NCBI GenBank assembly: GCA_004299145.1
Contig: SCQD01000280.1
Coordinates: 1-43,410 of the forward strand
Reading direction: 5' to 3'
Source: Methylococcaceae bacterium
GTDB taxonomy: Bacteria > Pseudomonadota > Gammaproteobacteria > Methylococcales > Methylococcaceae
DNA length: 43,410 nt
Position 1 is the first letter of the stretch. Each line of letters begins with the position of its first letter. Under the pieces are notes generated by a model, which did no database searches, had not been told where the DNA came from, and was given only the letters and a program-made list of their open reading frames with translations. A program made the translations under genes and the position numbers. Below, piece by piece: positions 5,468 to 43,410 of this stretch.

Positions 5468-6563
5468 TCACAATCCCTGTTTCAAGCTCGCTTCGATGAA
5501 TGGGTCCAGGTCGCCGTCCAGCACGACCTGGGTATTGCGGGTTTCCCAGCCGGTGCGCAGGTCTTTGATGCGTGAGTCGTCCAGCACGTAGGAACGGATC
5601 TGGCTGCCCCAGCCGATGTCGGATTTGGCGTCTTCCACCTTCTGTTTTTCCGCGTTGCGCTTTTGCAGCTCCAGCTCGTACAGCTTGGCTTTCAACTGCT
5701 TCATGGCGAAGTCGCGGTTGGCGTGCTGCGAGCGCTGCGACTGGCAGGCCACCACCGTATTGGTGGGAACGTGGGTGATGCGCACCGCCGACTCGGTACG
5801 GTTGACGTGCTGGCCGCCGGCCCCGGAAGCGCGGTAGACGTCGGTGCGCAGGTCCGCCGGATTGATGTCGATGTCGATGTCGTCGTCCACTTCCGGCGAG
5901 ACGAACACCGCGCTGAAAGAGGTGTGGCGGCGATTGCCGGAGTCGAACGGCGATTTGCGCACCAGGCGGTGCACGCCGGTTTCGGTGCGCAGCCAGCCGT
6001 AGGCGTATTCACCCTCGAAGCGGATGGTGGCGCTTTTGATGCCGGCCACGTCGCCTGGGGAGACTTCTTCCAGTTCGGTTTTGAAACCGCGTTTTTCGCC
6101 CCAGCGCAGATACATGCGTAGCAGCATTTCGGCCCAGTCCTGTGCCTCGGTGCCGCCGGAGCCGGCCTGGACGTCGAGAAAGGCGTTGTGTGCATCCATT
6201 TCGCCGGCAAACATGCGGCGGAATTCCAGCTCGGCCACGCGCGCCTCGTAGCGCTGCAAATCGGCTTCCACGACGGCGACGGTGCTTTCATCGTCTTCCG
6301 CCTCGGCCAGTTCCAGCAATTCTTCAGCGTCGTCCAAGCCTTGGGTCACGGTGTCCAGGCTGTTGATCACGCTTTCCAGTTGCACGCGCTCGCGGCCCAG
6401 GGTCTGGGCCTGCGCGGGATCGTCCCAGATTTTGGGGTTTTCCAGCTCCAGCCGGACTTCGGCTAAGCGCTCGCTTTTGCCGGCATAGTCAAAGATACCC
6501 CCTGAGCGCGTCGCTACGGCTCTTGAGGTCTTTGATGGCGGTGTATAAGGGATTCAGTTCCAT
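5468..6563 (-). CDS. prfB: peptide chain release factor 2 (programmed +1 frameshift)
   Basis: RF2 ends translation at UGA and UAA codons. The SPF anticodon-like tripeptide is present (KSPFDSG), as is the catalytic GGQ loop (SGAGGQHVN). The coding sequence starts at the ATG at 6561-6563 and reads 24 codons ending in RGYL. It meets an in-frame TGA at 6489-6491 and resumes in the +1 frame as [12 protein letters not shown]. The spliced product is about 364 residues, the normal RF2 length. Frameshifting lets RF2 regulate its own synthesis, since low RF2 favours the shift. Annotating only the downstream frame from the ATG at 6385 would lose the N-terminal domain. Confidence 0.96.
6488..6503 (-). 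promoter_or_regulatory. RF2 +1 programmed frameshift site
   Basis: Read on the minus strand the site is AGGGGGTATCTTTGAC: an internal Shine-Dalgarno-like AGGGGG, a three-base spacer, the slippery codon CTT and the stop TGA followed by C. These are the features of the well-studied E. coli prfB site. The stop is codon 25 of the frame starting at 6563. Confidence 0.95.
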
Positions 6564-6822: not shown

Positions 6823-6940
6823 GAAAGCCGCCGCGTCCTCGCGGAAAAGCTAAGGCTTCTTGAAAGCCGCCGCGTCCTCGCGGAAAAGCTAAGGCTTCTT
6901 GAAAGCCGCCGCGTCCTCGCGGAAAAGCTAAGGCATTCTT
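6823..6940. repeat. three tandem copies of the 39-bp palindromic element
   Basis: Units begin at 6823, 6862 and 6901; the third has one extra base. Each holds the hairpin CCGCGTCCTCGCGG followed by CTAAGGCTTCTTGAAA. Related single copies are at 14160, 16427 and 22413 (inverted), and a 36-bp variant is triplicated at 23358. The array lies just after the stop of the MBL-fold gene. Upstream, GGCGTCTCGCC near 6800 is another short dyad. The rest of 6564-6958 holds no recognisable gene. Confidence 0.85.
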
Positions 6941-12472: not shown

Positions 12473-13011
12473 TAGGGTAAAACACTCCGGGGTTGCGGCC
12501 ATTTCCACGAGGCCAGGGTTTCAGCGACCCGCTCCATGGCGATGCAGTCCACCGGGCACACCGGCACGCACAGTTCACAGCCGGTGCACTCCGAGGCGAT
12601 GACGGTGTGCATGTGCTTGGCGGAACCCAGAATGGCGTCGACCGGACAGGCCTGGATGCACAGGGTACAGCCGATGCATTTTTGTTCGTCGATGACCGCC
12701 AGCGCTTTGGGCTTTTCGCCACCCACCGCGTCGTCCAGCGGCTTGGCTTCCACGCCCAGCAACTCGGCCAGCGCTTTCACGCCGTCCTCGCCGCCCGGCG
12801 GGCAGCGGTTGATGTCCGCCTCGCCCTTGGCGATGGCCTCGGCATAAGGCCGGCAACCGGGAAAACCACACTGGCCGCACTGGGTTTGCGGCAGCACGGC
12901 GTCGATTTTCTCCACCAGCGGATCGCCTTCCACGCGAAAGTGGATGGCGGAATACCCCAGCAGCAGGCCGAACAGGGCGAACAGCGCACAAACCAGCAAA
13001 ATGCCCAACAT
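12472..13011 (-). CDS. rnfB: Rnf electron transport complex subunit B (ferredoxin subunit)
   Basis: This 179-residue protein has an N-terminal membrane anchor (1-20). A Cys cluster follows, CGQCGFPGC at 45-53 plus C70, and then two CxxCxxCxxxCP ferredoxin motifs at 112-122 ([12 protein letters not shown]) and 142-152 ([12 protein letters not shown]). It passes electrons between soluble ferredoxin and the complex. The start at 13011 is three bases after the rnfA stop, and its stop overlaps the rnfC start. The length is normal for the proteobacterial subunit. Confidence 0.95.
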
Positions 13012-13014
13012 CGC

Positions 13015-13596
13015 TTAACCCTTGACCAGACCGGCAAAGCCCATAAAGGCCATGGAAATCAGACCCGCCGTGATCAGGGCGATGGCGTTGCCCTGGAACG
13101 GTCCCGGCACGTCGGCGGCGTCGACGCGCTCGCGCACCGAAGCGAACAATACCAGCACCAGGGTAAAGCCGGCGGCGGCGCCGAAGCCGTACAGAGCGGA
13201 TTGCAAAAAATGGTGCTGCGATTGCACGTTCAGCAAGGCCACGCCCAATACCGCGCAGTTGGTGGTGATCAGCGGCAGATATATGCCGAGCACCTGATAC
13301 AACACCGGGCTGGTTTTTTGCACCACCATTTCCGTGAACTGCACCACCACGGCGATGACCACGATGAAGGCGATGGTGCGCAAATACTCCAGCTCCAGCG
13401 GCGCCAGCACATAGGCATTGACCACATAGCTGGAAATGGAAGACAGCGTCAGCACGAAGGTGGTGGCCAGGCCCATGCCCATGGCGGTATCGAGCTTGCG
13501 CGACACGCCCAGAAACGGGCACAGGCCCAAAAACTTCACCAGCACGAAGTTGTTGACCAGGATGGTGCTGACGAGGATGAGCAAATATTCTTTCAT
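13015..13596 (-). CDS. rnfA: Rnf electron transport complex subunit A
   Basis: This 193-residue, six-helix membrane protein is homologous to RnfE and Nqr[19 protein letters not shown] near the N-terminus and [14 protein letters not shown] in the middle carry the two cysteines that, with those of RnfE, hold the intramembrane iron-sulfur centre. It begins six bases after the coiled-coil gene and is followed immediately by rnfB, so it is the first Rnf gene of the transcription unit. Confidence 0.95.
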
Positions 13597-13602
13597 GGAG
13601 GC

Positions 13603-14217
13603 TCAGTTTCCCAAGGGGAAGTGGGCATTGCCCGCTAGACGCGCCAGTATCACGATCAAGCTGATCGCAGCGATCAGCTTCCAGGTTTGTGAGTTGATGG
13701 CCTGGTAAATTTTGATGAGTTCTTGCTGCATGTCCCGGAAATTGTCGTCCACCTTTTCAAAGCGCTTATTTACTTGCTCGAAACGCTGGTCCATGTCTTC
13801 GCGCAAAGCCGTCAGCTCTGCATGAAAGTCGGCGCGTTCTGCTTGTAAATCCCTTTGAAAATCGGTCCTCTGTGCCAGCAATCCCGCCTGAAAATCAGCG
13901 CGTTGAACCTGCATGTCTCGCTGAAAGTCGGCCCGCTGCGCCAACATTCCTGCTTGAAAATCGGCACGCTGTGCCTGCATTTCCTGCTTGAAATCAGTGC
14001 GCTGTGCCTGCATTTCTTCGCGCAGTTCGATGTCCAGGTGATAAAAATGGTTGGCTTGACCTTTTAAGATCAGCACGATTTTATCGTCCGAATTCAAGCC
14101 TTCACCGGATTTCAGCTTGCTCTGTACACGCTCGACTTCCTCGTCCAGCCATTTATCGAAAAAGCCGCCGCGTCCTCGCGGAAACACTAAGGCTTCTTGA
14201 AAATCGTTATCAAACAT
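13603..14217 (-). CDS. coiled-coil protein with 11-residue repeats and a C-terminal membrane helix
   Basis: This 204-residue protein has no function I recognise. Residues about 60-140 consist of roughly seven tandem 11-residue units of the type MQAQRADFQAG, a hendecad pattern typical of long slightly right-handed coiled coils. Next comes QRFEQVNKRFEKV and a single hydrophobic helix (TWKLIAAISLIVILARL) near the C-terminus. The protein is probably tail-anchored with the coiled coil in the cytoplasm. The start at 14217 has AGGAG upstream on the minus strand. It lies 10 bp after metG and six before rnfA, so it is co-transcribed. Residues about 7-19 come from a 39-bp repeat. Confidence 0.7.
   Translation of the reverse strand: MFDNDFQEALVFPRGRGGFFDKWLDEEVERVQSKLKSGEGLNSDDKIVLILKGQANHFYHLDIELREEMQAQRTDFKQEMQAQRADFQAGMLAQRADFQRDMQVQRADFQAGLLAQRTDFQRDLQAERADFHAELTALREDMDQRFEQVNKRFEKVDDNFRDMQQELIKIYQAINSQTWKLIAAISLIVILARLAGNAHFPLGN
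14160..14198. repeat. 39-bp palindromic element inside the coiled-coil gene
   Basis: This is one copy of the element tandemly repeated at 6823-6940. In the gene it encodes 13 residues including ALVFPRGRGGF. Removing these 39 bp joins the frame as MFDNDFFDKWLDEEV, with no shift. Confidence 0.75.
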
Positions 14218-14227
14218 AGGAATGCTC

Positions 14228-16348
14228 CTATTTCACTTTCATCCCCGGTTGCGCCCCGGCATCCGGCGACAACAGAAATAAACCGGGCGATTTGCCGTCC
14301 GGGTCGCTGGCCGCCAACACCATGCCTTCGGACAGGCCGAATTTCATCTGGCGCGGCGCCAGGTTCGCCACCATCACCGTCAACCGGCCCACCAGTTGTC
14401 CCGGTGGATAGGCCGATTTGATGCCGGCAAATACGTTGCGGGTTTGCGCTTCGCCCACGTCCAGCGTCAATCTTAACAGCTTGTCGGCGCCCTCCACGTG
14501 CTCGGCGTCGACGATTTTGGCGATGCGCAGGTCAACTTTGTTGAAGTCGTCGATGCTGAGGTATGGCGTTTCTTCCTGTAGCAGAGAGGCAGTTACAACG
14601 CCGGCATGCTGCTGGTGCTGTGAATGCCGCACTTGGGAGTGGGGCTGTGCCGCCGCCGGTTGCAGATCTTGCCTGTTGGCCTCCACCAGCGCTTCGATTT
14701 GCTTGGGGTCGACGCGCGTCAGCAAGTGCTGGTAAGGATGGATTTTCGTCAGCGGCAAATGCGCCACGTCTTGCCACAGCAGGCCCTGCGTCAGACCAAA
14801 CAGCTCACTTTCCACCCGCTGTGCCAGTTGGGGCAGGACGGGTTTCAGGTAGAGGGTCAAAACGGCAAACCAGCGCAGCGACGCGCTGCACACCCGGTGC
14901 AACTGTTGATCATTGACCGGGTCTTTGGCCAGCGTCCATGGCGCCTGCGCGGCTACGTATTCATTCACCAGGTCAGCCAAATGCATCACTTCGCGCATGG
15001 CCTTGCTGTAATCGCGAGACTCGTAATGGTCGGCAATGACCGCAGATTGCGCCAGCAAAGTGTCTTGCAAGTGGTTTTCCGCCGGGCTGTAGCACTCCAC
15101 GCCCAGAATACGGCCCTCGAAGCGCTTGCTGATAAATCCCGCCGTACGGCTGGCGATATTGATGTACTTGCCCACCAGATCGCTGTTCACGCGCAGCACA
15201 AAGTCTTCCAGGTTCAAGTCGGCGTCTTCCATGCTGCCGTTGAGCTTGCAGGCGTAGTAATAACGCAGCCACTCAGGATTTAAGCCCTGTTGCAAATAGC
15301 TCTCGGCGGTGATGAAAGTGCCGCGCGACTTGGACATTTTCTCGCCGTTGACGGTGAGAAAGCCGTGCGCGAAAACCTGGGTGGGCGTGCGCAGACCGGC
15401 GTATTGCAGCATGGCCGGCCAGAACAGGGCGTGGAAATACAGAATGTCCTTGCCGATGAAGTGATACAGCTCGGGCTCGGCGTCCGCGCGCCAAAAGGCG
15501 TCGAAATCCAGGCCGGTGCGGTCGCACAGATTTTTAAAGCTGCCCATGTAACCGATGGGCGCATCCAGCCACACGTAAAAATACTTGCCCGGCGCGTCGG
15601 GAATTTCAAAGCCAAAATAAGGCGCGTCGCGGGAAATGTCCCAGTCGGACAAATCGCCGGACAGCCATTCGTCCATTTTATTGGCCGCTTCGGTTTGCAA
15701 CGGCGGGATGGCGGACAGCTCGCCCCTGGTCCATTGCCGCAAAAAGGCCTGGCAGCGCGAATCGGACAGCTTGAAGAAATAATGCACCGACTCCTTGCGC
15801 ACCGGCGCCGCGCCGGAAATCGCCGAATAAGGATCGATCAAGTCGGTGGGCGCATAACTGGCGCCGCAGGCTTCGCAGTTATCGCCGTATTGGTCCTTGG
15901 CATGGCACTTGGGACATTCGCCCTTGATAAAGCGGTCCGGCAAAAACATCGCCTTGGCCGGGTCATAATATTGTTCGATGGAGCGCGCTTCGATCAGGCC
16001 CTGAGCGCACAGGCGCCGATAAACCTCGCAAGCCAGTTGTCGGTTTTCTTCGGCATTGGTGGAGTGATAGTTGTCGAATTCGATGTGGAAACCGGCAAAG
16101 TCGCGCTGGTGTTCGCCCTGCACCCTGGCGATGAGCTGTTCCGGCGTGATGCCTTCTTTTTCGGCGCGCAGCATGATGGGCGTGCCGTGCGTGTCGTCGG
16201 CGCAGACGTAATGGCATTCGTGGCCGCGCATTTTCTGGAAGCGCACCCAGATGTCGGTTTGCAGGTATTCGAGCAGATGGCCCAGGTGAATGGCGCCGTT
16301 GGCATACGGCAGGGCACTGGTGACGAGAATTTGGCGCGGCTGACTCAT
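14228..16348 (-). CDS. metG: methionine--tRNA ligase
   Basis: This class I synthetase of 706 residues charges tRNA-Met and initiator tRNA. The HIGH-type signature is HLGH at 21-24. A zinc knuckle follows near 145 (CPKC...CEAC), and the KMSKS loop ([11 protein letters not shown]) lies around 330-345. The C-terminus carries the EMAPII-like tRNA-binding/dimerisation domain beginning near [14 protein letters not shown], as in long gammaproteobacterial MetG. A Gln/His-rich linker precedes that domain. It is the promoter-proximal gene of the unit that continues into the coiled-coil and rnf genes. Confidence 0.97.
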
Positions 16349-16385
16349 TACGGGCGAGGTCCTGGCGTTACGGAAACGGCCTGAA

Positions 16386-16394
16386 ATTATCCCA
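16386..16394 (-). promoter_or_regulatory. candidate extended -10 promoter of the metG-rnf unit
   Basis: On the minus strand the bases read TGGGATAAT, an extended -10 (TG-N-GATAAT), 37 bp upstream of the metG ATG. The -35 position (CTATGC after 17 bp) is poor, as is common for extended -10 promoters. Confidence 0.4.
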
Positions 16395-16426
16395 CATTTC
16401 GACGATCAGCATAGGGAGTGCGCCGG

Positions 16427-16465
16427 TACAGCCGCCGCGTCCTCGCGGAAATACTAAGGCTGCTG
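16427..16465. repeat. 39-bp palindromic element upstream of metG
   Basis: This single diverged copy (CCGCGTCCTCGCGGAAATAC, then CTAAGGCTGCTG) is followed by GAAAGC. It lies in the 16349-16629 gap between metG and the plus-strand antitoxin gene, upstream of the candidate metG promoter. No gene is seen in this gap. Confidence 0.75.
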
Positions 16466-16508
16466 GAAAGCATCAGCGGCGACGGCGCTATGGCTTTCGG
16501 AAGTTCGC

Positions 16509-16591
16509 AGGATGTGCCGAACCAAGGGAGGTGCATCATTCGTGGCGCGAGGATGCCGCGAATGATGCGCTTCGCCGGCTCAGCGCATCCT
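16509..16591. repeat. repeat bounded by AGGATGTGCCGA and CAGCGCATCCT
   Basis: This stretch begins AGGATGTGCCGA, contains GATGCGCTTC and ends CAGCGCATCCT. The same three blocks in the same order occur at 37241-37306, and the outer blocks are partly complementary. An internal dyad (CATCATTCG...CGAATGATG) lies in this copy only. Confidence 0.6.
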
Positions 16592-16629
16592 GCTAAGCTA
16601 TTAACATCCAATATCCAATGAGGTTAGGC

Positions 16630-16878
16630 ATGACAACCAGTGAAGCTGTAAAGCTAGACGACGCCACCTATGAACGCCTGAAAGCCTTGGCTGAGTCCAG
16701 GCAGCGCACTCCTCATTGGCTGATGGGAGAGGCGATAAAACAATTTCTTGAACGTGAAGAAGCAGCCGAAAGCATCAAGCAAGACACATTGAAACGCTTG
16801 GCACGGTTCGAAGCGACCGGCGAAGCCGTTCCTTATGAAACCGTTGATACATGGTTGGCAACATGGGGCAGTCCGTAG
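16630..16878 (+). CDS. ribbon-helix-helix (CopG-type) antitoxin, orphan and probably truncated
   Basis: This is an 82-residue protein. The N-terminus (SEAVKLDDATYERLKALAES) has the pattern of a ribbon-helix-helix DNA-binding domain, followed by RTPHWLMGEAIKQFLEREE, as in RelE/ParE-linked antitoxins. The start at 16630 has GAGG a few bases upstream; the ATG at 16618 is less well placed. Family members usually continue after the WLATWG motif. Here the stop TAG lies in the first bases of a dispersed repeat (GTAGGCTGGGTTGCGG). No toxin gene follows. I infer that repeat insertion or deletion removed the C-terminus and the partner. Confidence 0.7.
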   Translation: MTTSEAVKLDDATYERLKALAESRQRTPHWLMGEAIKQFLEREEAAESIKQDTLKRLARFEATGEAVPYETVDTWLATWGSP

Positions 16879-16965
16879 GCTGGGTTGCGGTCCTCCGCGT
16901 AACCCAGCAATGACGTGCGGTCATGCTGGGATTCGCCGACTCATCCCGGCCTACGCGCTGTTTTA
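16875..16965. repeat. GTAGGCTGGGTTGCGG-type dispersed repeats
   Basis: GTAGGCTGGGTTGCGG and its inverted partner CGCGTAACCCAGCA form a hairpin at about 16876-16910. ATGCTGGGATTCGCCGACTC at 16923 and onwards matches 288-320. The first unit supplies the stop codon of the orphan antitoxin gene. Confidence 0.65.
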
Positions 16966-16979
16966 ATTAACTGCTGGGC

Positions 16980-17039
16980 GTGTAATTACACCATGAACCG
17001 AACAATAACATTGATATCTTGGCGCGCATTCTGTAAATA
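16980..17039 (+). promoter_or_regulatory. candidate operator palindrome and promoter of the RM operon
   Basis: GTGTAATTACAC at 16980-16991 is a perfect 12-bp palindrome. Downstream, TTGATA at 17011-17016 and TAAATA at 17034-17039 are 17 bp apart and 33 bp from the methyltransferase ATG. The palindrome is a plausible binding site for a regulator, but no controller gene is visible in the operon. Confidence 0.35.
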
Positions 17040-17072
17040 AAAATCTAATTGCAAAAACATCTGGAGAGGCAA

Positions 17073-18287
17073 ATGAAAAAAACCAACAAACTCAAGATGA
17101 TCGACCTATTTGCGGGTGCCGGTGGGTTATCGCAAGGGCTTCGCGAGGTTGGTTTTCATAGTCTTTACGCCAACGAGATCAAGCAACGTTACTCTGAAAC
17201 ATATGAGGCAAATCACGAAAATACAATTGTAGACCAGCGTGACATTCGCAAGGTTGACGCAGGTTCCGTGCGGAAGCGCCTCAAACTTAAACGAGGTGAA
17301 TTAGATCTGATCGCAGGCGGTCCGCCTTGCCAAGGTTTTTCTATTAATGCTCCTGTTCGTTCTTCTGATGACGAGAGAAATCATCTGTTTAAGGAATACC
17401 TTAGGTTTGTGGATGAGTTCTTCCCTCGGGCGGTTCTCATCGAAAACGTGCCTGGCCTTGTATCATTTGAGGGAGGCATCACACTTCAGGCAATTCTGAC
17501 AATGCTCGAAAAACATGGTTATGAGTCAGATGTAAAAATACTATACGCGCCGCACTATGGCGTACCACAGACAAGGTGGCGAACGATCATAATAGGATTG
17601 AGGGATGGGCAGGCACCGGGGCTGGCGTTTCCGGAACCTGTACGCCAAGCTCCGATCCGGGTGAATTTTACATCCCGATTTGAAGGAAGGAACATCGTGG
17701 CGTTACCTGGAAAAGTGGAATTGCCATCCTTTGTTTCAGTAAAGGATGCCATCAGCGACCTTCCCGTTTTGAAAAATGGTGAAACAGGAGAAGAGAGAAA
17801 GAAATACCGGATAGCACCGATAAACGATTTTCAACGAGCAATGCGTGCTGGATCGAATGGTATTTTTAATCACGAAGCCGCGCGGCTGAGCAAAATTAAT
17901 CTTGAAAGGTTGGCATTTATACCTCCAGGAGGGAATTGGACGAGCATCCCAGAAAAACTTTTGCCGAAAGGTATGCAGCGAGCCAGGCGTTCTGATCACA
18001 CAAAACGCTATGGTCGGGTAGAGCCTAACGGACTAGCTTCGACAATTCTGACCAAGTGTGATCCACACTGGGGAGCTTATTTCCATTATGACCAAGATCG
18101 CGCCTTTACTGTCCGTGAAGCCGCACGAATTCAGACGTTCCCTGATACCTTCCATTTTCTTGGTTCCCGTGTTGAGCAATATGAGCAAGTTGGCAATGCA
18201 GTTCCCCCATTGCTTGCTGCTGCCATTGGTTGCTCACTGGCTTGTGTATTAGGTTACGAAATCAAAGAACTGACAGGGGCTTTATAG
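17073..18287 (+). CDS. DNA (cytosine-5-)-methyltransferase
   Basis: This 404-residue enzyme transfers methyl from S-adenosylmethionine to C5 of cytosine at a specific site, protecting it from the partner endonuclease. The ordered motifs are visible: motif I DLFAGAGGLSQG (11-22), motif IV GGPPCQGFS with catalytic Cys86, motif VI ENVPG (124-128), motif VIII QTRWRTIIIG, and motif X YEQVGNAVPP near the C-terminus. The target-recognition region lies between VIII and X. I use the ATG at 17073, preceded by GGAGAG. The stop TAG overlaps the GTG start of the next gene. Codon use is AT-richer than in flanking genes, which suggests acquisition. Confidence 0.93.
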   Translation: MKKTNKLKMIDLFAGAGGLSQGLREVGFHSLYANEIKQRYSETYEANHENTIVDQRDIRKVDAGSVRKRLKLKRGELDLIAGGPPCQGFSINAPVRSSDDERNHLFKEYLRFVDEFFPRAVLIENVPGLVSFEGGITLQAILTMLEKHGYESDVKILYAPHYGVPQTRWRTIIIGLRDGQAPGLAFPEPVRQAPIRVNFTSRFEGRNIVALPGKVELPSFVSVKDAISDLPVLKNGETGEERKKYRIAPINDFQRAMRAGSNGIFNHEAARLSKINLERLAFIPPGGNWTSIPEKLLPKGMQRARRSDHTKRYGRVEPNGLASTILTKCDPHWGAYFHYDQDRAFTVREAARIQTFPDTFHFLGSRVEQYEQVGNAVPPLLAAAIGCSLACVLGYEIKELTGAL

Positions 18288-19210
18288 TGGCGGGATTTAT
18301 ATGGGAATTCTTCGGGTTTCGTTCTAAAGATAAGTCTGCTGAGGCCAGAGAAGCAGCACAGAAAGAACAATGTCCAATTCTTAACGAGAGGTGTGAGAAG
18401 ACTTTTAACGACGGGATAGTTTCCGGCGTCTGTACACTGAAACCAATAACATCAGATCCTGTAATCTGCTGCCCGATTCGACTTTATGCAGATGATTACA
18501 GGATACTTCGGGATGTATCGGTAAAAGCATTTGGAGAGAATCTCGATCTAATTCCAGGGCGCGAAGCTGTTTTTGCAGCCAGGACAGGAGGAAAAACATG
18601 TATTGCTGTTTTTGGTAAGCGCTGGGGTGGGGAATTACGCCTGCCCCAGAAGTCAGGTAGCGGTGGATATTTCGTAGATTGGGTGTTGGCCAAGCTGGAT
18701 ACAGACGGCGAATTATTGGAATTTGTAGCGGTAGAAGTCCAGACAATTGATACAACCGGGAACTACCGTAACGGGTACTCTGAACTCAACAGTGATCGAA
18801 ATGTTGTAAAAACCACTGCTGGATTGAATTGGGAAAACGTATCAAAGCGAATCCTTCCTCAATTGATATATAAAGGACAAGTTCTTCAACGTGAAGAAAT
18901 GTGTAAGAAGGGTCTGTTTTTCGTTTGCCCGCAACCCGTTTTTGAACGTATCGCAAGCAGACTTGGCGGGCAAGATGGCCTTATTCGCTATGCGCTACAA
19001 CCGGCGTCAATCACATTTTTAGCTTACAACCATAATGTGGAAAAACAAGGAAAGGATGGTGAGTTGCTTCCTCTAAAGCAAACACTCTCTCATTCAACTA
19101 CAGTTTATAAAGTTCAAGAGGCTTTCAACAACGTTACTCTTCCTGAAGAGAATGTTTACAGGAACGCTATTATTAAAGCACTCAGGAAGGATCAAACTCA
19201 TCGCGGATAA
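18287..19210 (+). CDS. NotI-family type II restriction endonuclease
   Basis: This 307-residue protein, read from a GTG that overlaps the methyltransferase stop (TAGTG), has AGGGG seven bases upstream. It resembles NotI in order and spacing. The N-terminus has FIWEFFGFR (NotI: FIAEFFGHR). Four cysteines follow in CPIL, ERCEK, GVCTLK and ICCPIR (29, 36, 49, 61/62), as in the NotI iron-binding fold. Then come GGELRL and D131 in YFVDWVLAKLD. E150-V-Q152 in AVEVQTID matches the unusual E-x-Q form of the PD-(D/E)XK site. NotI itself cuts GCGGCCGC; the specificity here is not known. Similarity is from memory, not a search. Confidence 0.82.
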   Translation: MAGFIWEFFGFRSKDKSAEAREAAQKEQCPILNERCEKTFNDGIVSGVCTLKPITSDPVICCPIRLYADDYRILRDVSVKAFGENLDLIPGREAVFAARTGGKTCIAVFGKRWGGELRLPQKSGSGGYFVDWVLAKLDTDGELLEFVAVEVQTIDTTGNYRNGYSELNSDRNVVKTTAGLNWENVSKRILPQLIYKGQVLQREEMCKKGLFFVCPQPVFERIASRLGGQDGLIRYALQPASITFLAYNHNVEKQGKDGELLPLKQTLSHSTTVYKVQEAFNNVTLPEENVYRNAIIKALRKDQTHRG

Positions 19211-19619
19211 AGTTTCCCCAGTAATTCGTAGCAAAACAATGAGCCGTATCCGAAGCAAGGATATGGCGCCAGAAATGCTTGTGAGACGCCTTGTTTACGC
19301 CATGGGATACCGCTATCGCCTTCATCGAACTGATTTGCCGGGGAAGCCTGATCTCGTTTTTTCAAGCCGCAAGAAAATTATTTTTGTTCACGGCTGTTTT
19401 TGGCATCAGCATATAAAATGCAAAGATGGTCATGTTCCAAAATCAAACATCAAATACTGGCAACCCAAACTTGAACGGAATGTTCAAAGAGACAAAAAGG
19501 CACTGAAAGAACTTGAAGAACTTGGGTGGGATGTTTTGGTCGTTTGGGAGTGTGAAATCAAAGATCAAGAATTAATCTCTGTTAAAATCGAACAATTTCT
19601 TTCGAAAAGCATCGCCTAA
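19152..19619 (+). CDS. vsr: very short patch repair (Vsr) endonuclease
   Basis: Vsr nicks DNA at T:G mismatches left when 5-methylcytosine deaminates, so it fits a C5-methylase operon. Recognisable segments are IRSKTMSRIRSKD, YRYRLHRTDLPGKPDLVF, the catalytic/zinc region FVHGCFWHQH, and KYWQPKLERNVQRD. The start is uncertain. Homologues begin about where IADKVSP lies, but that codon is ATC (19200). ATC has AGGAAGG nine bases upstream, yet it is a non-standard start. The ATG at 19152, inside the endonuclease gene, gives 155 residues; the ATG at 19239 would cut conserved sequence. I give the longest frame. Confidence 0.88.
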   Translation: MFTGTLLLKHSGRIKLIADKVSPVIRSKTMSRIRSKDMAPEMLVRRLVYAMGYRYRLHRTDLPGKPDLVFSSRKKIIFVHGCFWHQHIKCKDGHVPKSNIKYWQPKLERNVQRDKKALKELEELGWDVLVVWECEIKDQELISVKIEQFLSKSIA

Positions 19620-19659
19620 CGAATAACAAGGAAACAGGGGCGCCCATTGGCCAGCCGGT

Positions 19660-19935
19660 ACCAACAAGGGAAAGCAGGGTAGAGTAGGGAACAAGGGTTC
19701 CACATTCCGTAGGCTTGGCCTATCCATTTCTGCCCCGTTCGTCTCGTCCGGCGATGTCTCATTAGCCATGCCATAGTCCGCTTCTCCTGCCCTCCCTCAT
19801 CAAACGTGCGTGCGGTTTTATTCGCTCCATCCTTTTAGGGGTTCACCCCTTTGGGGCCAGCCTGCGGCTGTCCAAACCCGCTCCCGCGGCGGATTTGTCC
19901 CGCACACGGCTTTCCGATGTTCTTCACACCAAAGC
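19660..19935 (-). mobile_element. probable group II intron 3' remnant
   Basis: Read on the minus strand, AACATCGGAAAGCCGTGTGC near 19915 and GCACGTTTGATGAGGG near 19800 resemble the conserved 3' portion of group II introns. A stretch of about 80 bp with several dyads interrupts the hairpin. No reverse transcriptase is encoded; only short broken frames are visible up to about 20110. The 19620-20194 gap otherwise shows no gene. The assignment rests on remembered sequence and is tentative. Confidence 0.35.
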
Positions 19936-20194
19936 ATGCGCCACCTTCCAGGCCGCATTAGTGGCAACTTTGTACACCCTCTGCTCTGTGTAGAAATCCC
20001 GGCGGGCAAATCGCTCTCCGCGATGGCGGACTTTGTGAGAATTTCGGCAAATAAATCTGCCCCCCACACACACAAAGCGTTCCGGCGGGAGACTGTTCAT
20101 AAACCTGACTCCTTTGGAACAATATGCATAGAAAAACGGCATTTCCTATATACATCGGTCACGACGTGCATAGGAAAACAGCAGAACGAATTCC

Positions 20195-22261
20195 TCAATC
20201 CCTCGCCCAACCCTCAACCAACGCGCTGGGCATCGGCAACGATTCGCTGGACGGTGGACAAGGCTTGCCGTTGAGGGCGCAGTAGCACACGCGCAGCATG
20301 TCCGCCACCAATACCCAGGTGATGACCAGGAAAAATGCCGTCAGGGCGGCGTCCAGGTAGTTGTTGAAGATTAATTGCGGGGCGCCGGCGGCTTTGGCGG
20401 CGTCCAGTTTGCCCTGCGCCAGCTTGTCGGCCAGATCGCCCGCTTGCGCCAGAAAGCCGATGCGCAGTTCCGGGCTGAACAGCTTTTCCCAGGCGGCGCT
20501 GCTGGTGACGATGACCAGCCAGGCCAGCGGCGCGCCGGTGACCCAGGCATAGTGCGCCTTGCCGGTTTTGACCAGTATGGTGGTGCCCACGCACAGGGCG
20601 ATGGCTGCCAGCATCTGGTTGGCGATGCCGAACAGCGGCCACAGGCTGTTGATGCCGCCCAGGGGGTCGATGGTGCCCATGTAGAGAAAATAGCCCCAGC
20701 CCGCCACAACCAGGAAGGAGGTGATTAGCACACCGGGGTACCAGGAGGTGCGGCCCAGGGCGGGCGACCAGTTGCCCAGCATGTCTTGCAGCATGAAGCG
20801 GGCGACGCGGGTGCCGGCGTCCAGCGTGGTGAGGATGAACAGCGCTTCGAACATGATGGCGAAGTGGTACCACAGCGACAGCAATTTTTCGCCGAAGGCA
20901 GCGGCGAACAGCGAGGCCATGCCCACCGCCAGCGACGGCGCACCGCCGGTGCGGGCAAATAGCGTACTTTCACCCATTTCCCGGGCCAATGCCTGCATTT
21001 GCTCCACGCCGACCGGAAAGCCCCAGGACGAAATCAGCGCCACGGCGTCGGCGGCTTCCTTGCCCACCACGCCCGCCGGGCTGTTGATGGCGAAATACAC
21101 GCCTGGTTCCAGCACGGTGGCGGCGACCATGGCCATGACGGCGACGAACGATTCCATCATCATGGCGCCGTAGCCGATGAAGCGCGCATCGGCTTCGTTC
21201 GCCAGCAGCTTGGGCGTGGTGCCGGAAGCGATCAGCGCGTGAAAGCCGGATATGGCGCCGCAGGCGATGGTGATGAAGACGAAGGGAAACAGCTTGCCGC
21301 CGAAGATGGGGCCGCTGCCGTCGATGAAAGGCGTCAGCGCCGGCATTTTGACTTCCGGGTGCAGGATGACGATGGCGACGGCCAGCGCGCTGATGGTGCC
21401 CAGCTTGACGAAGGTCGACAAATAATCGCGCGGTGCCAGCAGCAGCCAGACCGGCAGCACGGCGGCGGCAAAGCCGTAGGCGATGATCATCAGCGCCAGT
21501 TGCGGGCCGTCGAAGTCGAACCAGGCGCGCCAGGTGGCGTCGGCATCGATCCAGCCGCCGCCCACCACCGCCAGCAACAGCAGGCCGACGCCGATGGCGG
21601 TGGCTTCCAGCACCCGTCCGGGCCGCAGGTTGCGCATGTACAGGCCGACCAGCACCGCGATGGGGATGGTCGCCGCCACGGTGGAAGTGGCCCAGGGACT
21701 GTGCTTCATGGCGTTGACCACCACCAGGCCCAGCACGGCGATGAGGATGATCATGATGGCCATGACGCCGAACAGCGCCGCCGTGCCGCCCACCACGCCC
21801 AGTTCGTCGCGCGCCATTTGGCCCAGGGAGCGGCCGTCGCGGCGCAGCGAGAAAAACAGAATGGCAAAGTCCTGTACGCATCCGCCCAGCACCGCGCCGA
21901 CCAGTATCCACAGCGTGCCCGGCAAATAACCGAACTGCGCCGCCAGCGTGGGGCCGATGAGCGGGCCGGGGCCGGCGATGGCGGCAAAGTGGTGGCCGAA
22001 CACCACCCACTTGTGGGTAGGCACGAAATCGCGGCCATCGTTGAGGCGCTCAGCCGGCGTGGCGCGGGTGGCGTCCAGCACCAATACCTGCGTCGCGACA
22101 AAGGCGCTGTAAAAGCGGTAGCCCAGCGCGTACACGCACACAGCGGCGGTGACGAACCACAGGCTGTTGATGGTTTCGCCGCGATTGAGGGCAATGGCGC
22201 CGACGGCGGTTGCGCCGAGCAGGGCGATGGCGATCCAGATCAACCAGGTTCGATAATTCAT
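20195..22261 (-). CDS. cstA: CstA-family carbon starvation / pyruvate transporter
   Basis: This 688-residue polytopic membrane protein with some 16 or more hydrophobic segments is of the CstA/BtsT family, known for pyruvate or peptide uptake. Typical segments include GHHFAAIAGPGPLIGPTLAA, FGYLPGTLWILVGAVLGG and ALIASGTTPKL. The start at 22261 (MNYRTWLIW) has GGAG upstream; a few extra codons to 22279 are unlikely. It stands alone between the intron-like remnant and the PD-(D/E)XK-like gene. In enterobacteria the gene responds to carbon limitation; no CRP-type site was recognised here. Confidence 0.93.
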   Translation of the reverse strand: MNYRTWLIWIAIALLGATAVGAIALNRGETINSLWFVTAAVCVYALGYRFYSAFVATQVLVLDATRATPAERLNDGRDFVPTHKWVVFGHHFAAIAGPGPLIGPTLAAQFGYLPGTLWILVGAVLGGCVQDFAILFFSLRRDGRSLGQMARDELGVVGGTAALFGVMAIMIILIAVLGLVVVNAMKHSPWATSTVAATIPIAVLVGLYMRNLRPGRVLEATAIGVGLLLLAVVGGGWIDADATWRAWFDFDGPQLALMIIAYGFAAAVLPVWLLLAPRDYLSTFVKLGTISALAVAIVILHPEVKMPALTPFIDGSGPIFGGKLFPFVFITIACGAISGFHALIASGTTPKLLANEADARFIGYGAMMMESFVAVMAMVAATVLEPGVYFAINSPAGVVGKEAADAVALISSWGFPVGVEQMQALAREMGESTLFARTGGAPSLAVGMASLFAAAFGEKLLSLWYHFAIMFEALFILTTLDAGTRVARFMLQDMLGNWSPALGRTSWYPGVLITSFLVVAGWGYFLYMGTIDPLGGINSLWPLFGIANQMLAAIALCVGTTILVKTGKAHYAWVTGAPLAWLVIVTSSAAWEKLFSPELRIGFLAQAGDLADKLAQGKLDAAKAAGAPQLIFNNYLDAALTAFFLVITWVLVADMLRVCYCALNGKPCPPSSESLPMPSALVEGWARD

Positions 22262-22358
22262 GGGGCACTCCGGGTGCAATGTTATGGCTACAAACGTTTG
22301 GGGCAGGGTGCAAACCCCGCCCCGCTATGTCATTTCTCGGCAGTTTTGTGGGTACTTC

Positions 22359-22919
22359 TTACCAAATCCCCGGCACAAAGCGCTGGTCGTTGCGGATTTC
22401 CAGGTGATCGCCGCTTTCGAGAAGCCTTAATGATTCCGCGAGGACGCGGCGGCTTTGGCCGATGACGAACAAGCCCTGGCGGTAGGCGTATTGCGCCACG
22501 TTGTCGGGTATGACCATGGCCGCCACGGCGCCCATGACCCGCGCATCGGCGTAGCGGGGCAGCAGTTGCTTCAGCTTGGCCAGGCGTTCCAGGTGCTCCT
22601 GGACGTCGTCCAGCTTCAGGTTGCTTTTGCATTCGATGGCAATGACGTCGCTGTCGTTGACCACCAGCAAATCGATTTCGATGCCCGCCTCGTTGCGCTG
22701 GGCGCTGACGTTTTGCTGTACCTCGTGGATGTCGATGCCCCGCTCTTTGAACAAGCGCACGGCGGCGGGCCGTACGGCGTCCTCGATAAAATCACCCAGC
22801 CGATTGCCCAGCTTACCGATGCTGGCGGTGACTTCTTTGATCTTGCGGTCGGTTTCCCGCTGTGACTGGGCGAGTTCACGCAGAATGGCCCAGATATCAT
22901 CGGCGACGATGGCGCTCAT
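22359..22919 (-). CDS. PD-(D/E)XK nuclease-like protein (DUF3782 type) with a repeat insertion
   Basis: This 186-residue protein begins with a short coiled-coil region (RELAQSQRETDRKIKEV). A small alpha/beta domain follows, carrying EIDLLVVNDSDVIAIECKSN, the D...ExK pattern of PD-(D/E)XK nucleases. It matches widespread bacterial proteins of unknown function, often present in several copies per genome. Residues 154-166 (RRVLAESLRLLES) are encoded by a 39-bp palindromic element. Without them the sequence reads GLFVIGQSGDHLEI, the usual family C-terminus. The ATG at 22919 is chosen over an upstream ATG. The gene lies downstream of vapBC on the same strand. Confidence 0.72.
   Translation of the reverse strand: MSAIVADDIWAILRELAQSQRETDRKIKEVTASIGKLGNRLGDFIEDAVRPAAVRLFKERGIDIHEVQQNVSAQRNEAGIEIDLLVVNDSDVIAIECKSNLKLDDVQEHLERLAKLKQLLPRYADARVMGAVAAMVIPDNVAQYAYRQGLFVIGQSRRVLAESLRLLESGDHLEIRNDQRFVPGIW
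22413..22451. repeat. 39-bp palindromic element, codon-aligned inside a gene
   Basis: This is an inverted copy relative to 6823-6940. It replaces no codon: it adds exactly 13. GCTTT occurs at its left edge (22413-22417) and again just outside its right edge (22452-22456), like a short direct repeat made on insertion or tandem duplication. Confidence 0.8.
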
Positions 22920-22961
22920 GATGAAGCTCCTTGTAATCAAGTGGGTGAAAAAACCGGATGT

Positions 22962-23354
22962 TCATGCCCAATTCTCCAGTTTTAAACCAGCGACCCGTTC
23001 AAACTCCCGCGTATTGTGCGTCACCAGTACGGCGTCTTCCGCCAGGGCGTGGGCGGCGATGAGCAGGTCCATGTTGCCGATGGGGTTGCCTTGGCGTTCC
23101 AGATCGGCGCGGAGGATGGCATAAATGCGAGCTGCCTCCGCGGGCCAGGGATGGACCGGAAAGGGGCGCAGCCAATCTTCCATGAGCAAACGAAAACGGG
23201 ATGAGCCGGTTTTTTCGATGCCAAAGCGCAGTTCAGCGACCACAATGACCGACAAAAAAATATCGTTGGCGGTCTGCTCGGCAAAGTGTGCCAAAACGGA
23301 TTGAGGATGGCGACGCAAAATATAGCTGCAAATATTGGTATCAAGCATTTTCAT
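22962..23354 (-). CDS. vapC: VapC-type PIN-domain toxin ribonuclease
   Basis: This 130-residue PIN-domain endoribonuclease, type II TA toxin class, probably cuts tRNA or rRNA. The acidic active-site residues are D5 (MLDTN), E41 (VAELRFG) and D96 (NMDLLIAAHA), with the THNTREF motif following. The length is normal and no lesion is seen. The start at 23354 follows the antitoxin gene, but instead of the usual few bases there is a 99-bp gap filled by three tandem 36-bp repeats. Confidence 0.92.
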   Translation of the reverse strand: MKMLDTNICSYILRRHPQSVLAHFAEQTANDIFLSVIVVAELRFGIEKTGSSRFRLLMEDWLRPFPVHPWPAEAARIYAILRADLERQGNPIGNMDLLIAAHALAEDAVLVTHNTREFERVAGLKLENWA

Positions 23355-40996: not shown

Positions 40997-43410
40997 TTAT
41001 TCCCTGTACCTAAAAGGCGCAAGACTGCCTATGCCGGCAAAGTTTTTGATTGACCATAACGAATGGGTAAATTGAGCTTTCCATACCTTGCCGCGCAACG
41101 CTGAAGGTACGGCAACACGGTATAAATCCTTAATGCCGGTATCTTCGCGCGGGTGAACAGCGCCTTTCGGGTCAATCATGATACTGCCCAGTGGGTCGTC
41201 CACCGATCCCAGTTCATCATGGAATACAATTTCTGTGGCTGATTTTGGTACGTAAAAATATACCGAAGGATAACCAACCGCGTCAAAATCCGCTTCCCCT
41301 ATGCGTTTGAATAGTGGGATTTTGCTTTGCATGGTGAGTCGGTTGAAATATCCAGTGAAATGCAGGGAATATTCCTGCCCCGCCTGAACGGGGAGCGAGT
41401 AATGTTTCATAAACCAATCCTGTCCATCGAGTGTTTCGGTGAAAGTCGTATTGTCAACCCCAATACTCTCCTTAAGCAGGATGGTGGATTTGTTGAAAAT
41501 CTCCAGCGTTGCCGTATCGGTCGATCCGGCATTAAACACGAGATTCCCCGTCTGCTTGACTTTGAACTGCATGCTGACGTCGCCGCCGTATCGCCACGCC
41601 ATTTTGTCTGCTTGATGCAGAAAGTCAGCCTTGTCTAATTCAAACGAAAAAGGCAACACGACATATAGTTGCGGATTAGACATCAGGTCGAGGGCAAAAT
41701 TTGCTTCAATCTCGTCGACGGACAAAACTTTTCCCACTCCCTTTGGAAAAACATTAACATCATTCACCAGTGGTTGTAGATAAGATTGTGACTGAAAGGC
41801 TGCCGTTTGCACCATCATCAGGTGATGAATGCTGTATAGATATTGAAAAATAGCATCTTTGCCGGCTTGGGTTCCATCATGTTCATAAAAAAGCTTCATG
41901 TAATGCACATAAGCTTTTAATTCATTCAGTCGCTTCCATTCGGCTCCACCATATTCGACCAGTTCGGTCGCATCGCGCAGATCCGCCAGTGATTGCGAAA
42001 CATCGCCTCTCTCCTGATAATTATTGCTCCAGCGGTCATACATTCGACGCATTACCGGCGCAGCCGGCCCAAAGCAATCTTGTAGATATTGGCTATAAAG
42101 CGCATCAAAATTCTTACCCATATCAAACATCAACTGACTGCCCAGCCACCACGCATGACCCATGGCTCCGGCTCCATCAGTCGTTTCGATATAAATGCCG
42201 TCAATCTTGTTTGTATGCCAAAACTTTAGCTTTTCCTTCATGCCATAAATATCGAAACCCGGCACGCCGTAACTCCACGCAGTGATGTTCCAGTAATCGT
42301 AAATCCCCATTTTTTCGACACGTTTCGACCATTCGACGATCATTTCTTCCGGTATGTAAGCGGTCTGAAATGCATACGGCGTCAGTACTGGGTATACGTT
42401 TTTCCTCAAGTCGAAACTCGGCGCTAAAGCAGCCGTAGAGCCGCTTCCGTAGGCATAGGCCGTAATTACCGTCATCGGATCATTTTCGTTATACATTTTT
42501 GCAACTTCATTGGTAACGTACCACCATTTGTCGGCATGATTAAGCAGGTGGGTTTCAACCGGCGGCAACGGGTCATCAATGCCTCCCTTGCCATCCTCCG
42601 GTTCTGTGCCTATGGCAACAAAGCTCTTTCCAATTTCGGCAGAATATTTATCGAATATCCAATCTTTGTAGGCTTGCAAGGCGGCTGGAATTTCAACGCG
42701 AAATCGCCCACCCAACCTTCCCGATTTGGAGTTGAACCATTGGGGATGCGCATCCAGTAGCGCTTTGTTTTCCAAATAAAATGCTTCGCCGGTATGGCCT
42801 TGGGGCTCAAAATCACCATTGATGCGCAACCTGCGTTTCCATTGCAGCCACTGTTTTTTGTAAGATTCGTTTTCGTCGACTCCTGCGGGTTCGGCCAAAT
42901 CGAGTCCGCCTGTGCCTGAGAAAAATCGATTACGAAAGCTTGGCGCTGTCCATCCACCTGATTTGTTGGATAGCTTGATTTTTGCAGGGCGTATCGTCCA
43001 ATTTTCGCCTGGTCCATACCAGCGAAACCCCATGCTTTCGAGTAATGTATAAATGGCGTTTTCCAATGATTCATGGGTGGTGTACTTGATGACCGCATCA
43101 TAACCGTTGCGCTTTAAGTAAAACTCCTGTCCCGTTCGGCCCGCTAAAGCGACCTGCTCAATCCTGATAGTGCCGGCCTCATAATTCGCAAGCTCTTTTT
43201 TTAGATCGGACAAGGCTTCGGAAGCGACGTGCCTGGCGATAATAACTGTCGGATGATGCGACGCGGCAAAGGTGGCGTTGGCTTTGGATGATGCGGGTAT
43301 AAGGGCGGCTTTTGCCGCTGTAAAATCCGACCGTGGTTGGGTTGCTTCTCCTTGAGCCGCAAAAGGAAGAGCGCTCACAAATAATAAAATCGCCCAGGCC
43401 GAGAAAGCGC
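40997..43410 (-). CDS. secreted DUF4838-family protein (5' end outside window)
   Basis: At least 803 residues are encoded. The frame stays open past an internal GTG at 43378 to the window edge, and the upstream codons encode AFSAWAILLFVSALPFAAQG, the core and cleavage region of a signal peptide. The true start is therefore beyond 43410. The body matches the alpha-glucuronidase-like DUF4838 group: an N-terminal helper domain (ENAIYTLLESMGFRWYGPGE), then a TIM-barrel-like part (IYIETTDGAGAMGHAWWLGS). A C-terminal beta-rich region follows. A glycan-degrading role is inferred, not shown. Confidence 0.78.
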   Translation of the reverse strand, partial: AFSAWAILLFVSALPFAAQGEATQPRSDFTAAKAALIPASSKANATFAASHHPTVIIARHVASEALSDLKKELANYEAGTIRIEQVALAGRTGQEFYLKRNGYDAVIKYTTHESLENAIYTLLESMGFRWYGPGENWTIRPAKIKLSNKSGGWTAPSFRNRFFSGTGGLDLAEPAGVDENESYKKQWLQWKRRLRINGDFEPQGHTGEAFYLENKALLDAHPQWFNSKSGRLGGRFRVEIPAALQAYKDWIFDKYSAEIGKSFVAIGTEPEDGKGGIDDPLPPVETHLLNHADKWWYVTNEVAKMYNENDPMTVITAYAYGSGSTAALAPSFDLRKNVYPVLTPYAFQTAYIPEEMIVEWSKRVEKMGIYDYWNITAWSYGVPGFDIYGMKEKLKFWHTNKIDGIYIETTDGAGAMGHAWWLGSQLMFDMGKNFDALYSQYLQDCFGPAAPVMRRMYDRWSNNYQERGDVSQSLADLRDATELVEYGGAEWKRLNELKAYVHYMKLFYEHDGTQAGKDAIFQYLYSIHHLMMVQTAAFQSQSYLQPLVNDVNVFPKGVGKVLSVDEIEANFALDLMSNPQLYVVLPFSFELDKADFLHQADKMAWRYGGDVSMQFKVKQTGNLVFNAGSTDTATLEIFNKSTILLKESIGVDNTTFTETLDGQDWFMKHYSLPVQAGQEYSLHFTGYFNRLTMQSKIPLFKRIGEADFDAVGYPSVYFYVPKSATEIVFHDELGSVDDPLGSIMIDPKGAVHPREDTGIKDLYRVAVPSALRGKVWKAQFTHSLWSIKNFAGIGSLAPFRYRE

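Follow-up and report, generated by a model that had tools for sequence, protein, structure and literature searches.

What does a compact island of three genes, lying between metG and cstA in the genome of a Methylococcaceae bacterium, encode, and how did it come to be there? The question is raised by positions 17073-19619 of contig SCQD01000280.1 (assembly GCA_004299145.1), within a stretch of 43,410 nucleotides that was analysed at its full length and is here called the window. The initial annotation had described the island as a C5-cytosine methyltransferase (M), a NotI-like endonuclease (R) and a Vsr mismatch endonuclease (V); its coordinates hold, and proteins of all three kinds were found there (Table 1). 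The cassette is very probably a complete type II restriction-modification system of the NotI kind, horizontally acquired and likely to be functional, its activity being predicted from sequence.

The endonuclease scores 35.3 bits against the Pfam model of NotI (PF12183; cut-off 22) and corresponds to REase_II of PADLOC (4.3e-43), while no restriction-enzyme model of NCBIfam was matched. A phmmer search against all solved sequences returned NotI (3bvq) as the top match, with E=1.8e-5. An AlphaFold2 model, computed from an alignment of 44 rows (the protein with its relatives) and reaching a mean predicted local distance difference test (pLDDT) score of 89.5, gave four Foldseek matches at E<=0.001, every one of them a NotI chain. 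Aligned to DNA-bound NotI with VIA-align, the model reached a Z of 23.4 (3.1 A over 270 aligned residues), with the next unrelated chain only at Z 6.6; the structural match to NotI on which the annotation had staked this identity beforehand was thus found. The phmmer alignment places C29, C36, C49 and C62 with NotI C42, C55, C65 and C81, and D131, E150 and Q152 with NotI D160, E182 and Q184, which we take to be the catalytic residues of NotI. All seven positions are identical in 97 of 97 relatives, comprising 80 kept from 186 matching stretches of a genome collection and 17 matching viral contigs, a few of which seem to be one sequence occurring in both collections. Hence the four-cysteine N-terminal pattern and the E-x-Q catalytic variant noticed at the outset are both present and conserved. 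A review describes a glutamine in place of the lysine in the active site of NotI, and iron taken up in its Cys4 motif (PMC4081073). By every feature compared, the endonuclease belongs to the NotI family, and it would have a fold of PD-(D/E)XK type, with four cysteines forming a metal site.

The second component is a C5-cytosine methyltransferase, matching PF00145 (E=1.6e-68, 231.9 bits; Pfam) and TIGR00675 dcm (210 bits; NCBIfam), with the motifs FxGxG, PPCQ (containing Cys86), ENV and QxRxR all present. In 94 of the 97 loci, a script placed a methyltransferase directly upstream of the endonuclease and in the same orientation, to which L032 adds another, judged by coordinates; in L117 and L118 the methyltransferase lies downstream in the opposite orientation. 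The gene is in pieces in L091 and L097, and cut by the contig end in L102. Pairwise distances between methyltransferases track those between endonucleases (r=0.913 over 93 loci, a value that not one of 999 permutations reached), in a comparison that leaves out the four loci (L073, L074, L116 and L118) pairing a related endonuclease with a methyltransferase of another branch. The methyltransferases of L073, L074 and L118 form a separate branch in the tree, and the figures for L116 equal those for L074. As these four loci carry a different methyltransferase, the lineage of the endonuclease has switched methyltransferases one or more times. For two of the four, 3g7u and M.HaeIII are the best solved relatives; the target-recognition part of the L073 methyltransferase did not align to M.HaeIII, and no recognition site was deduced from it. 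With their genes linked and co-diverging, methyltransferase and endonuclease constitute a restriction-modification pair.

The third gene encodes a genuine member of the Vsr family, as had been claimed, exceeding the cut-offs both of PF03852 (E=3.9e-28, 97.6 bits, cut-off 27; Pfam) and of TIGR00632 vsr (E=2e-44, 150.7 bits, cut-off 97.85; NCBIfam). Its start appears unusual. Position 2 of TIGR00632 aligns with residue 18 of the frame opened at 19152, such that the canonical position of the first methionine is occupied by an ATC codon (19200-19202) rather than ATG; the nearest in-frame ATG codons are at 19152, within the endonuclease gene, and at 19239. The sequence AGGAAGG lies nine nucleotides 5' of this ATC. 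In L109 the same ATC (5914-5916) is preceded by AAGGAG at seven nucleotides, and in L032 the frame opens at 5905 without an ATG, GTG or TTG until 5947. The Vsr frames of three related cassettes therefore lack any of these codons at the canonical start, with a ribosome-site-like sequence followed by ATC in two. We infer that translation of Vsr would begin at this non-standard ATC codon, which might hold the level of the protein low.

Acquisition of the cassette by horizontal transfer is well supported. The guanine-plus-cytosine (GC) content is 0.47 in M, 0.44 in R and 0.41 in V, against 0.59 in the rest of the window, bearing out the AT-richer composition first remarked upon. A search of 37 other genomes of the host family found no endonuclease match in the single sister species; six of the 37 had matches, at 31-37% identity. 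The closest relative found was L109, on the viral contig IMGVR_UViG_3300007510_001430 (IMG/VR), with identities of 83, 84 and 77% for M, R and V respectively. It shares with the cassette studied here the gene order, the ATC at the Vsr start and an AT-rich composition (GC 0.446, against 0.58 and 0.54 around it), but is flanked by a lambda-type portal gene and a Peptidase_S49 gene, and lies among phage structural genes, rather than between metG and cstA. Relatives were also found in 27 plasmid records, 20 of them predicted to be conjugative, and, among 50,697 records of phages, in that of Pseudomonas phage vB_Pae_U8 alone. Hence the description of the cassette as complete and acquired stands, given three intact genes, low GC, a sister species without the endonuclease, and mobile relatives. 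By contrast, the NotI family cannot be called uncommon, as it had been: besides the plasmid records and the 186 stretches of the genome collection, 13 of the 398 genomes searched from the window's phylum, the host's own among them, contain such an endonuclease, and the plasmid records are already annotated 'NotI family restriction endonuclease'.

These features suggest how the cassette might work. Going by its family, the methyltransferase would put a 5-methylcytosine mark on a palindrome in the DNA of the host, and the NotI-like endonuclease, probably as a dimer by analogy with other type IIP enzymes, would cut that palindrome in incoming DNA that lacks the mark. The linkage of the third gene suggests that Vsr would nick the T:G mismatches arising where a methylated cytosine deaminates, which would keep the methylation site from being mutated away. 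The three genes, which overlap end to start, including the TAGTG junction originally pointed out between M and R, would probably be read as one unit, with a GGAGAGG-like ribosome site 5' of the methyltransferase ATG at 17073. The cassette most likely arrived on a phage or another mobile element. A published observation in Xanthomonas oryzae PXO99A is relevant to restriction of this kind: a gene that aligns with NotI/EagI homologues, beside a methyltransferase gene, is interrupted by an insertion sequence, and the authors suggest that this interruption could explain better transformability (PMC4853030).

The same biochemistry could serve other interests than those of the host. The cassette might be mainly selfish or phage-serving, a stability module that damages cells from which it is lost or keeps competing phages out, instead of one that defends the host. 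The position of L109 among phage structural genes is what such a module would predict, as are the many relatives on conjugative plasmids and the one in a phage. Here, however, the cassette lies between metG and cstA, and a Pfam scan of five neighbouring frames showed no phage gene among them. We rather doubt that a selfish role predominates, while taking the possibility seriously; the selfish and host-defence readings share their biochemistry, and both can hold.

Several observations weigh against a complete, acquired three-gene system protecting a defined site. Firstly, only three of the 97 relatives (L109, L032 and L073) have a Vsr gene immediately downstream of that of the endonuclease. A clear Vsr-like frame was found nearby in six of the 97, with a seventh, L099, being weak (38 bits), and at least 500 nucleotides of downstream sequence, enough to show a Vsr gene, were present in 91 of the 97. 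The M-R-Vsr partnership is thus confined to a small group. Secondly, the host genome contains two further Vsr genes, together with other C5-methyltransferase matches. Thirdly, a study of Caulobacter ties a Vsr-like protein functionally to an unlinked methyltransferase (PMC12907096), hence linkage alone is no proof of a partnership between Vsr and methyltransferase. Fourthly, an empty site was looked for in the sister genome and not found, because the metG and cstA matches are approximately 150 kb apart there. Finally, no convincing avoided palindrome emerged from either the flanks of 88 endonuclease loci or a comparison of 12 carrier with eight control genomes.

These last analyses also bear on whether the specificity is new. 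The endonuclease may possess a new rare-cutter specificity, as originally proposed from its sequence; alternatively, it could be an isoschizomer of NotI (GCGGCCGC) or EagI (CGGCCG), whose fold and active site are, for NotI, the same as those modelled here. In the DNA flanking the 88 loci, examined without controls, the 6-mers with the lowest z were CCGCGG, CGGCCG, CTCGAG and CGATCG, with CGGCCG second most depleted (287 occurrences, against an expectation of 450) and GGCC likewise second among the 4-mers, which would suit an isoschizomer. So would the arrangement in X. oryzae, where the gene aligning with NotI and EagI adjoins a methyltransferase annotated 'PliMCI' (PMC4853030). The second comparison set 60 stretches of 20 kb from the 12 carrier genomes (1.2 Mb) against 40 stretches from the eight comparison genomes of the window's phylum, five of which had no PF12183 match, and three of which (G398, G403 and G407) had no match to P0002. 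CTCGAG, CGATCG and CCGCGG were low in carriers and controls alike; CGGCCG came 25th among 64 in carriers (0.79, with 0.78 in controls), and GCGGCCGC stood at 0.87 in carriers against 0.82 in controls. That neither site is lower in carriers speaks against the isoschizomer explanation, as does the identity to NotI of approximately 24%, although both arguments are weak; we regard the explanation as unlikely. Other sequences were lower in carriers: ATCGAT (0.55 against 0.76, and below 1 in 12 of 12 carriers, with a range of 0.17-0.93), CATATG (0.62 against 0.89, unevenly) and GTTCGAAC (6 against 15.9 expected in carriers, 20 against 15.1 expected in controls). They are not taken as evidence of the site, because hundreds of palindromes were compared and the lineages were unmatched. 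An eight-base target, or a short residence of the cassette, could mask a real site in such tests.

That the cassette is silent or decayed here, with the methyltransferase alone or nothing at work, is very improbable: the Vsr gene lacks a standard start codon at its canonical place and no sigma-70-like site was found on the + strand of 16850-19800, but all three frames are open with their catalytic residues retained, L109 has the same ATC after a ribosome-site-like sequence, and the promoter scan is uninformative (two sites on the - strand, where 3.8 are expected by chance), promoter and terminator scanning giving about chance level.

The methyltransferase of this complete NotI-type cassette raises a further question, as its best match among solved structures is eukaryotic DNMT1 (E 3.5e-52), ahead of M.HaeIII (5.5e-31). 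One source derives Dnmt1 from a prokaryotic methyltransferase (PMC3227630), and another calls the bacterial source of eukaryotic maintenance methylation unclear (PMC12344493). A piece of DNMT1 served as query against the 398 genomes of the window's phylum and against 299 of Bacillota, the phylum of a Christensenella (centres being counted within these numbers), giving 37 matches in 33 genomes of the former and 23 in 23 genomes of the latter. Of these 60 matches, 53 were made into loci, the 54th being the host's second methyltransferase. A NotI-family endonuclease lies next to eleven of the 53, and by summed score these eleven take ranks 1-9, 11 and 13; the host's second methyltransferase ranks 18th, and adding it leaves the NotI-linked ranks unchanged. 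The NotI-linked methyltransferases (17073-18287, with L226, L228-L230 and L256-L259) are the most DNMT1-like bacterial enzymes in both samples. The 'PliMCI' annotation in X. oryzae, presumably naming the sea-urchin DNMT1, fits this likeness.

The trees are less simple. NotI-linked methyltransferases form one group, supported at 99 by the Shimodaira-Hasegawa-like approximate likelihood ratio test (SH-aLRT), but a sister relationship between them and DNMT1 was looked for in the trees and not found. DNMT1 forms a long separate branch, and in the first free tree stands beside the methyltransferase of L231, with support of 86. A second tree leaves out 14 of the 75 rows as long-branch or swapped. 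A tree forcing DNMT1 with the NotI-linked group was not rejected by the approximately unbiased test (p-AU 0.69), its log-likelihood being 6.2 above that of the free search. That these methyltransferases are the nearest bacterial group to DNMT1, with the eukaryotic maintenance enzyme descending from a NotI-type cassette, we consider improbable. Against it stand the placement of DNMT1 beside L231, the long DNMT1 branch and the formation of the hypothesis after the ranks had been seen, and slow evolution of the NotI-linked group could alone produce high DNMT1 scores. The likeness is therefore a lead, not a finding.

Table 1. The cassette genes, their first junction and the borders of the island, in window coordinates.
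Feature	Position	Strand	Details
C5-cytosine DNA methyltransferase (M)	17073..18287	+	404 amino acids; ATG start, TAG stop
TAGTG stop/start overlap of methyltransferase and endonuclease	18285..18289	+	read in the sequence
NotI-family type II restriction endonuclease (R)	18287..19210	+	307 amino acids; GTG start, TAA stop
Vsr mismatch endonuclease (V)	19200..19619	+	read from the ATC aligned with the family's first methionine; alternatives ATG 19152 and ATG 19239
Left-hand border	16412..16960	.	a small ribbon-helix-helix gene surrounded by short repeats that are dispersed in the host
Right-hand border	19671..20037	-	two pieces, with further copies elsewhere in the host genome

The surroundings of the cassette contain repeats. 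One of approximately 40 bases is dispersed in the window (16430-16471, 6826-6934, 14163-14202 and 22413-22454), with further copies in the host genome. Just left of the cassette, 16630-16878 (+) encodes a small ribbon-helix-helix protein of PutA/CopG type (Pfam), possibly half of a toxin-antitoxin pair; to the right, a frame at 22962-23354 (-) may encode a nuclease resembling the VapC-type PIN nucleases. Copies of the two right-border pieces occur at 87 and 91% on one host contig, and at 86 and 83% on another. One of the two pieces lies beside a short frame that we take to resemble the beginning of a reverse transcriptase of the group II intron kind, although the frame had no Pfam match. An Rfam scan of 13000-23000 gave three matches, none reaching its family's gathering score. 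A second AT-rich stretch (40997-43408, -; GC approximately 0.46-0.51) contains one frame of about 800 amino acids that reaches near or past the end of the window.

With this cassette, a widespread branch within the NotI family gains an intact and compact member. No functional study of the plasmid and phage branch was found in the literature, in a search that REBASE and most subscription journals lay outside. The target of this cassette, or that of one closely related to it, would probably point to the targets of many related systems on plasmids, in phages and in bacteria. From the M-R-Vsr order it can be seen that a gene for mismatch repair is able to move together with a cassette of NotI type, and the likeness between its methyltransferase and DNMT1 offers a concrete place to seek the bacterial source of eukaryotic maintenance methylation.

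Several known systems resemble this arrangement in part. With NotI (PDB 3bvq and 3c25; PF12183), the endonuclease has in common its fold, its Cys4 site and its D...E-x-Q active site, although it is shorter (307 amino acids, against 383) and shares so little of its sequence, and the added Vsr gene sets the small M-R-V group apart. The pairs on Variovorax WDL1 plasmid 6 and Cronobacter pESA2 have the same M-R order, with endonucleases at 68-69% identity, whereas no Vsr relative was present in the stretches opened from three plasmids and one phage. The catalytic domain of eukaryotic DNMT1 is the methyltransferase's best solved match, yet stands apart from it in the tree. In the Dcm-Vsr system, a C5-methyltransferase gene adjoins a Vsr gene, as in the cassette described here, and the XorII methyltransferase gene is likewise said to be paired with a Vsr gene. 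To our knowledge, no cognate type II endonuclease gene adjoins that of Dcm in E. coli; in this cassette, by contrast, methyltransferase, endonuclease and Vsr stand together.

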